From assembly GCF_015207825.1 (NCBI RefSeq), contig NZ_JADEWC010000011.1:1-64000 (forward strand): a stretch of DNA of 64,000 nucleotides. Direction: 5' to 3'. The DNA comes from Cyanobacterium stanieri LEGE 03274. Lineage in GTDB: Bacteria; Cyanobacteriota; Cyanobacteriia; Cyanobacteriales; Cyanobacteriaceae. The translations under genes and the position numbers were made by a program. Each line of letters opens with the position of its first letter. The stretch's first letter is position 1. A model generated the notes under the pieces. That model worked only from the letters and a program-made list of their open reading frames with translations, searched no databases and had not been told where the DNA came from. Positions 50,200 to 51,751 of this stretch are shown here, piece after piece.

Positions 50200-50496
50200 A
50201 TGAGAAATACCAAGGTTGTAAAAACTTTTGCTAAAAATCCCGCCGTTGAAGAGCGTCGTTTTTTATTTGAAGTTTCTGGAATTTCCCAACAGGGAGATAA
50301 CAACTTAGAATACGCCATTCGTAAGAGTGGAAATTCATTTTTAGCCGTTCCTTATTCTCGTATGAATCAGGAAATGAACCGCATTAACCGTTTAGGCGGT
50401 AAGATCGTTAACATCTCCCCTATCGGTGTAGTTGCTCCCGTAGCGGGAAATGCCGAACCTCAAGAGGCAGCAGCAGACCAAGAAACTGATAAATAA
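50200..50496 (+). CDS. Stand-alone CpcD-type linker domain protein similar to the PetH N-terminus
   Basis: 98 residues. The core from VKTF through NISPIG is a CpcD domain: [20 protein letters not shown], then [21 protein letters not shown]. By hand alignment about 58 of its first 81 residues are the same as in the PetH linker domain encoded 44 bases downstream. It then ends in an Ala/Glu-rich tail (EPQEAAADQETDK) with no FNR part. It could cap phycobilisome rods, as CpcD does, or compete with PetH for its rod site. AGGAG precedes the ATG by about 13 bases. Probably co-transcribed with petH; paralogy by duplication is the simplest reading. Confidence 0.82.
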   Translation: MRNTKVVKTFAKNPAVEERRFLFEVSGISQQGDNNLEYAIRKSGNSFLAVPYSRMNQEMNRINRLGGKIVNISPIGVVAPVAGNAEPQEAAADQETDK

Positions 50497-50539
50497 TTAA
50501 GGAGCAAAATCAGCGTAAGGAGTTTAGCAATCACAATCA

Positions 50540-51751
50540 ATGAAAAAATTTAATACAGTAAAAACCTTTTCCAATAATTCTGTAATAGAAGAACGTCGTT
50601 TCCTCTTTGAGGTTGTTGGAATTTCTCAACAAGGAAGTAATAATTTAGACTATCCTATTCGTCAGAGTGGAACAAGTTTTATCACTGTTCCCTATTCTCG
50701 GATGAATCAGGAGATGACTCGGATTAATCGCCTTGGAGGGAAAATTGTTAACATTACCCCCATCGGTATTAATACCCCTGTTCAAGCTCAAAGTCTAAGT
50801 TCAAGTTCTGAAAAAACTACGAACAATAAACCCATGACTCAAGCTCAAGAAAAAAAAGAAAAAAAAGAGGTAAAAGTACCTGTTAATATATACCGCCCTA
50901 AAAATCCTTTTATGGGCAAATGTATTGAAAATTACGAACTCGTAGCCGAAGGCGGTAGTGGTACTGTACGCCATTTAACTTTTGATCTTTCTGATGGTGA
51001 TTTACATTATTTAGAAGGTCAAAGTATTGGTATCATTCCCCCCGGGGAAGACGAAAAAGGTAAACCCCATAAGTTACGCCTTTACTCCATCGCTTCTACC
51101 CGTCACGGTGACAACCTAGACGATAAGACAGTTTCTTTGTGTGTGCGTCAACTAGAGTATCAAAACGAAGAAGGAGAAACCGTACAAGGTGTATGTTCTA
51201 CCTATCTTTGTAACCTAGAAGAAGGGGCTGACGTAGCTATTACTGGCCCTGTAGGTAAAGAAATGCTTTTACCTGATGATGAAGATGCAACCATCGTTAT
51301 GTTAGCCACTGGTACTGGTATCGCTCCTTTCCGTGCCTTTTTATGGCGTATGTTCAAGGAAAGAGAGTTAAATCCTGATTATCAGTTTAAAGGTTTAGCA
51401 TGGTTAGTTTTTGGTATTCCTTACACTCAAAATATTCTTTATAAAGAAGAATTGGAGAAAATGGCTGAGGAATATTCTGATAACTTCCGTTTAACTTATG
51501 CTATCAGTCGGGAACAAAAAACCGATGATGGTGGAAAAATGTATGTTCAAAGCCGTGTAAGCGAATATGCTGACGAGTTATTTGAACTAATTCAGAAACC
51601 TAATACCCATGTTTATATGTGTGGTTTGAAAGGTATGGAACCTCCTATTTCTGAAACCTTTACCGCTGAGGCGGAGAAAAGGGGAATGAATTGGGATGAG
51701 ATGCGCAAACAGATGAAAAAAGAACATCGTTGGCACGTTGAAGTTTATTAG
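50540..51751 (+). CDS. petH: Ferredoxin-NADP+ reductase with N-terminal CpcD domain
   Basis: A 403-residue FNR. Residues about 5-75 are a CpcD linker domain ([35 protein letters not shown]) that binds the enzyme to phycobilisomes. A Lys/Glu-rich hinge (KEKKEVKVP) follows. The FAD domain contains LRLYSIAST and VCSTYLCNL, and the NADP domain [32 protein letters not shown] and [13 protein letters not shown], ending in the C-terminal Tyr (WHVEVY) expected for FNR. It reduces NADP+ from ferredoxin in linear electron flow, and may also act in cyclic flow. A terminator lies after it. Confidence 0.97.

Follow-up and report, generated by a model that had tools for sequence, protein, structure and literature searches.

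The rod-capping linker of phycobilisomes (PBS), CpcD, is an 8.9-kDa protein (PF01383; NCBIfam NF058509), exemplified by ssl3093 of Synechocystis 6803 (PDB 7sc8 chain BN). A domain of the same type forms the N-terminus of PetH, the three-domain ferredoxin-NADP+ reductase (FNR-L). Reportedly, ApcI, a linker protein of Synechocystis 6803, also contains a CpcD domain and is akin to the linker domain of FNR. In Synechocystis 6803, CpcD and the corresponding domain of FNR bind alike to CpcC2, at its Pfam00427 domain (PMC10322944), and the choice between FNR isoforms is reported to depend in Synechocystis on an alternative translation start and on mRNA structure (PMC9144156). Removal of the CpcD domain from the FNR of Synechococcus 7002 abolishes PBS attachment and impairs cyclic flow, and the attachment matters there for both cyclic flow and photoheterotrophic growth (PMC9319322). 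Why is FNR tethered to phycobilisomes, and why does cryo-EM find it on CpcL rods and not on CpcG rods? Both reasons are stated as open (PMC9319322, PMC10322944).

In Cyanobacterium stanieri LEGE 03274, petH is preceded by a small gene for a free-standing protein of CpcD type. The features of the locus in the window (the whole stretch of 64,000 nucleotides that was analysed) are as follows.

50070..50199, + strand: petH-type promoter/leader (GGTAAGATT ... TTGACAT ... TTTAAGACAAACTTTA ... ATCAGGAGTATATTAAAGAT), now before the small gene
50200..50496, + strand: small gene, encoding a 98-aa stand-alone linker of CpcD type, derived from the N-terminal domain of petH and proposed to cap rods
50254..50421, + strand: PF01383 (CpcD) domain, residues 19-74 of the small protein (79.1 bits, cut-off 27)
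50497..50539, + strand: intergenic gap of 43 nt, with an AAGGAG motif inside and without a terminator-like hairpin
50540..51751, + strand: petH, 403 aa, three-domain ferredoxin-NADP+ reductase (FNR-L), probably the second cistron
50594..50761, + strand: PF01383 (CpcD) domain, residues 19-74 of PetH (79.8 bits, cut-off 27)
50834..50836, + strand: candidate internal start ATG of petH (Met99, 'MTQ'), read from the sequence

A preliminary description of this DNA had reported a 98-residue copy of the PetH CpcD domain immediately upstream of petH, with about 58 matching positions by hand count. Both open reading frames are confirmed, on the same strand and 43 nt apart, and in a BLASTP alignment without gaps the small protein and the PetH N-terminus are identical at 58 of 85 positions (68%, E=5e-41), which rules out chance similarity. 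The petH product itself is recognized by NCBIfam NF058510 (710.8 bits, cut-off 635). The small protein is a complete CpcD domain: it retains the CpcD signature residues, carries a single stand-alone PF01383 domain and no other, and its reading frame stops at residue 98, without the FAD- and NADP-binding domains of three-domain PetH. The NCBIfam rod-cap model matches the small protein and the PetH domain alike (104.7 and 101.8 bits, cut-off 80) and thus cannot discriminate them. The classic stand-alone CpcDs of a related genus (g5, below) share only 53-57% identity with the small protein, so that its likeness to PetH does exceed what is expected for an ordinary CpcD, as had been proposed.

Within petH, the Met99 ATG is a candidate start for a short FNR without the CpcD domain; 'MTQ' stands at the same petH position in genome G011 and in genera g5 and g58, all introduced below. 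In the single-contig genome G004 (locus L025), the reading frame of petH is interrupted within the A-rich linker between the CpcD and FNR domains, which may be a sequencing error, slippage or a real split; the matching site in the window (50850-50866) reads A8-G-A8 and is in frame. On the other side of the leader lies a divergent gene (49470-49937, - strand); its 155-aa product combines a hydrophobic segment at the N-terminus with a Pro-Glu repeat and a bacterial SH3 domain (PF08239).

AlphaFold predicts for the small protein the order strand-strand-helix-strand (strands 18-26, 45-51 and 68-78; helix 52-64), at moderate confidence only (mean pLDDT 65). Its best matches in the PDB are CpcD caps (7sc8, 8tro) and, from CpcL-PBS, the CpcD domain of FNR (8hfq). 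Codon comparison across relatives indicates that the small gene and the PetH CpcD domain are both under purifying selection (dN/dS of about 0-0.16 and of 0.04-0.18, respectively); for the small gene these values rule out a pseudogene or a spurious reading frame. Synonymous sites are near saturation when the small gene is compared with the petH of its own locus (pS 0.52-0.77), which makes the duplication old.

The whole assembly (3.19 Mb, estimated 100% complete) was searched for linker genes. PF01383 occurs four times only: in the small gene, in PetH, in a CpcC-type protein (contig C4) and in an ApcC-type protein (contig C35), the last (55.9 bits) encoded beside two phycobiliprotein genes. The PF01383 search thus found no classic cpcD elsewhere in the genome, and no protein of ApcI type. 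PF00427 occurs in one CpcC, in one CpcG-type protein of 250 aa without a hydrophobic tail, and in three ApcE repeats; no CpcL was found by this search of the whole assembly. The cpc genes are dispersed, with a cpcBA-type pair on contig C1, cpcC alone on C4 and cpcG on C28 (loci L037, L038). A complete cpc operon with cpcD, which the preliminary description had held to speak against a petH origin, is absent from the genome, and the small gene adjoins petH rather than lying 3' of cpcC. With no cpcD, no CpcL, a single CpcC and scattered cpc genes, the small gene is left as the only stand-alone candidate for a rod cap.

Is the small gene a displaced cpcD or a copy of petH? The same description had suggested a phylogeny of CpcD domains that includes PetH and the rod caps. 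An IQ-TREE tree of 138 such domains (76 PetH, 48 classic CpcD and 14 petH-adjacent copies; 91 columns) does not place the small protein with classic CpcD. The nine small proteins of the window's family (f1) form one clade (100/100) nested in the PetH domains of the same family (99/91), a position at odds with common descent with classic CpcD, and 45 of the 48 classic CpcDs form a separate clade that includes those of the sister genera g4 and g5. A tree in which the f1 copies have to join classic CpcD is worse by 85.9 units of log-likelihood (lnL -85.9) and is rejected (AU p=0.000145). Many deep forks of the tree are open, given the few columns, but the groupings of the f1 copies and of CpcD are not among these.

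The distribution within the family agrees with the tree. Fifteen genomes of genera g1 to g5 were surveyed. The small gene stands directly before petH, and cpcD is missing, in all five genomes of g1 and in four of the five of g3. Genera g4 and g5 have cpcC and cpcD together in a cpc locus and nothing before petH, and g2 has neither cpcD nor the small gene. The leader follows the same division. With GGTAAGATT, TTGACAT, TTTAAGACAAACTTTA and ATCAGGAGTATATTAAGGAT, it lies directly before petH in g2, g4, g5 and in G011, the one g3 genome without the small gene; in the g1 and g3 genomes with the small gene, it lies directly before that gene, 266-438 nt upstream of the petH frame. The petH leader now precedes the small gene, hence the small gene was inserted between petH and its own leader. 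A classic cpcD moved next to petH is ruled out by the tree, the AU test and the position of the leader. A search upstream of petH in other families did not find the leader motifs, and Rfam detects no RNA in the leader.

The tree with its AU test, the displaced leader and the lack of a cpcD elsewhere in the genome together give strong support to the small gene having been copied from petH, one of the two possibilities raised in the preliminary description, namely a rod-cap linker of petH origin. The tree places G011 within g3. Like the small gene, its petH (locus L019) begins with MRTTKVV, and it has the same short leader end as the small genes; it resembles a recombinant in which the small gene's leader and first codons were kept and the remainder lost. 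From these sequences, G011 may have lost the small gene later, through recombination between the copies.

Gene conversion could give the tree another meaning. If an old cpcD had long stood beside petH and had been made PetH-like by conversion, there would be no duplicate at all; conversion can mimic a PetH likeness specific to each lineage, and one ancient arrangement would then account for the several lineages described below. In f1, however, the petH leader itself has been displaced by the small gene, and in the sister genera cpcD belongs to the cpc locus rather than lying beside petH. The near-saturated synonymous sites also make recent conversion unlikely in this family. We consider conversion very improbable as the source of the small gene and retain its origin as a copy of petH.

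The arrangement is not confined to this family. Stand-alone CpcD-type reading frames upstream of petH, on the same strand, occur also in genera g58 (family f8), g34 (f5) and g73 (f10), which belong to three other families of the same order; among the matches listed, there was no such pair in other orders of the class. In g34 the petH-adjacent copy is present in three of six genomes and absent from the other three, close relatives that do without it. Each copy groups with its own PetH (g58, 100/96; g73, 100/99; g34, 100/98), and the AU test rejects a single origin of all petH-adjacent copies (p=0.000116). Subject to the caveat of gene conversion, this test rules out that all lineages inherited one ancient gene beside petH (p=0.00012 when rounded). 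In g58, a short piece of the sequence ahead of the copy is found again in front of petH (score 29, against at most 26 after shuffling), which fits duplication rather than conversion. Judged from these sequences, the duplication seems to have taken place separately in at least four cyanobacterial lineages. In two g58 genomes (G193 and G233, loci L097 and L098), the spacer from the small gene to petH is about 350 bases longer than in the other g58 genomes, and the additional sequence is perhaps a small mobile element.

The copy-bearing genomes of g34, g58 and g73 have no detected cpcD elsewhere. Of about 109 genera sampled, about 22 have no cpcD away from petH, and every one of the five copy-bearing genera is among them (hypergeometric p=0.0002 by genus and 0.001 by lineage); this tally is approximate, since for most genera the small protein was the only query of the screen. 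Neither a stand-alone CpcD nor a petH-adjacent copy was seen in about 16 of 97 other genera, so that a rod cap may not be strictly required.

How might the small gene have arisen, and what might it do? Most likely the 5' end of petH, comprising the CpcD domain, was duplicated in tandem in the common ancestor of two sister genera of the family. The copy landed between the petH promoter/leader and petH, making the small gene the first cistron and petH the second. The gap between them lacks a terminator-like hairpin (50497-50539 checked), which makes one transcript likely, and the small gene and petH are probably co-transcribed from the shared petH promoter. Short gaps between the two genes are also found in relatives. 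The short spacing, and a site inside the former petH leader, would equally suit an upstream cistron whose main task is to control petH translation, by coupling or by the choice between long and short FNR, the protein being secondary; the choice of FNR isoform in Synechocystis has been tied to translation start and mRNA structure (PMC9144156). A reading frame of that kind would need neither the strong purifying selection at the protein level nor the CpcD signature residues that the small gene has kept, and we rate this explanation as the least probable of all, slightly below gene conversion.

We favour instead a role for the protein itself. By analogy with CpcD and with the PetH CpcD domain in Synechocystis, the small protein, as a free CpcD fold, would insert in the distal phycocyanin disc on the CpcC linker and so cap rods in place of the classic cpcD product that is missing from the lineage. 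The PetH domain would stay functional, and both products of the one transcript would share the ends of CpcG rods. Since the genome has no CpcL, PetH could dock only on these same rod ends, and the two proteins would compete for them. Such competition is the other possibility that the preliminary description had raised; it has the standing of a probable consequence, in view of the shared fold and docking site, the purifying selection on the PetH domain and the lack of another cap or of CpcL. The ratio of small protein to PetH would then set the amount of FNR docked on phycobilisomes, which could matter because removal of the CpcD domain impairs cyclic flow in Synechococcus 7002 (PMC9319322).

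Could the small protein be a dedicated antagonist of FNR docking and no structural cap, made from the petH transcript and displacing PetH from rod ends, freeing FNR and shifting electron flow? It has the same docking fold, its nearest relative is the PetH domain itself and it is probably encoded in the same operon; PBS attachment of FNR also matters in Synechococcus 7002 (PMC9319322). However, no other cap protein was found in the copy-bearing genomes, so the role of a plain cap is vacant and is the simpler reading, and a cap would displace FNR anyway, the mechanism being partly the same. An antagonist is thus unlikely, if less so than the other alternatives weighed above. The neighbouring ndhS, to which the preliminary description had also pointed, is indeed present (51838-52026; PF11623, 109 bits), but it is weak as a functional argument: it lies within about 110 nt of petH only in this genome (G000) and its nearest relative (G001), and the adjacency was dropped as evidence.

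The origin and the pattern of replacement can be read from the genes themselves, and from them we infer capping and competition. We hold it likely that, taken as a whole, the small protein is a rod cap born of petH that replaces cpcD and shares rod ends with PetH. More tentatively, and with the doubts outweighing the hopes, cpcD may have been replaced repeatedly by a copy of the FNR docking domain at the petH locus, one transcript fixing the ratio of capped to FNR-bearing rod ends. If true, this would be a recurrent way to tune the placement of FNR and hence linear versus cyclic electron flow. Lineages that have no cap other than a sister of the FNR docking domain, with its gene directly ahead of petH, would be natural experiments on competition at rod ends. 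The four origins, each without another detected cpcD, suggest that petH can readily give rise to a new cap and that the rod end accepts cap and FNR interchangeably. The literature searched, with most subscription journals outside the search, yielded no description of a petH-derived rod cap.

Among known linkers, the ApcC core linker has the PF01383 fold in common with the small protein, and a separate apcC is present on C35. Six f8 genomes (G216, G131, G166, G241, G155 and G021) encode single-PF01383 proteins of about 145-165 aa, probably of ApcI type; the f8 candidates of about 148 aa coexist with a separate cap, and the small gene differs from them in length and context. Like the N-terminal CpcD domain of PetH/FNR-L (PDB 8hfq chain m), the small protein is of PetH type in sequence (68% identity within the genome), but it lacks the FNR catalytic domains and ends in a short acidic tail. 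With CpcD it shares a single PF01383 domain, a length of about 80-100 aa and the same predicted fold. Unlike CpcD, it groups with PetH domains and is encoded next to petH and not in a cpc operon, and it has a PetH-type N-terminus and an MNQEM motif where most CpcDs have MNEEM. The small protein would therefore work like the rod cap CpcD, yet it would be no CpcD orthologue.
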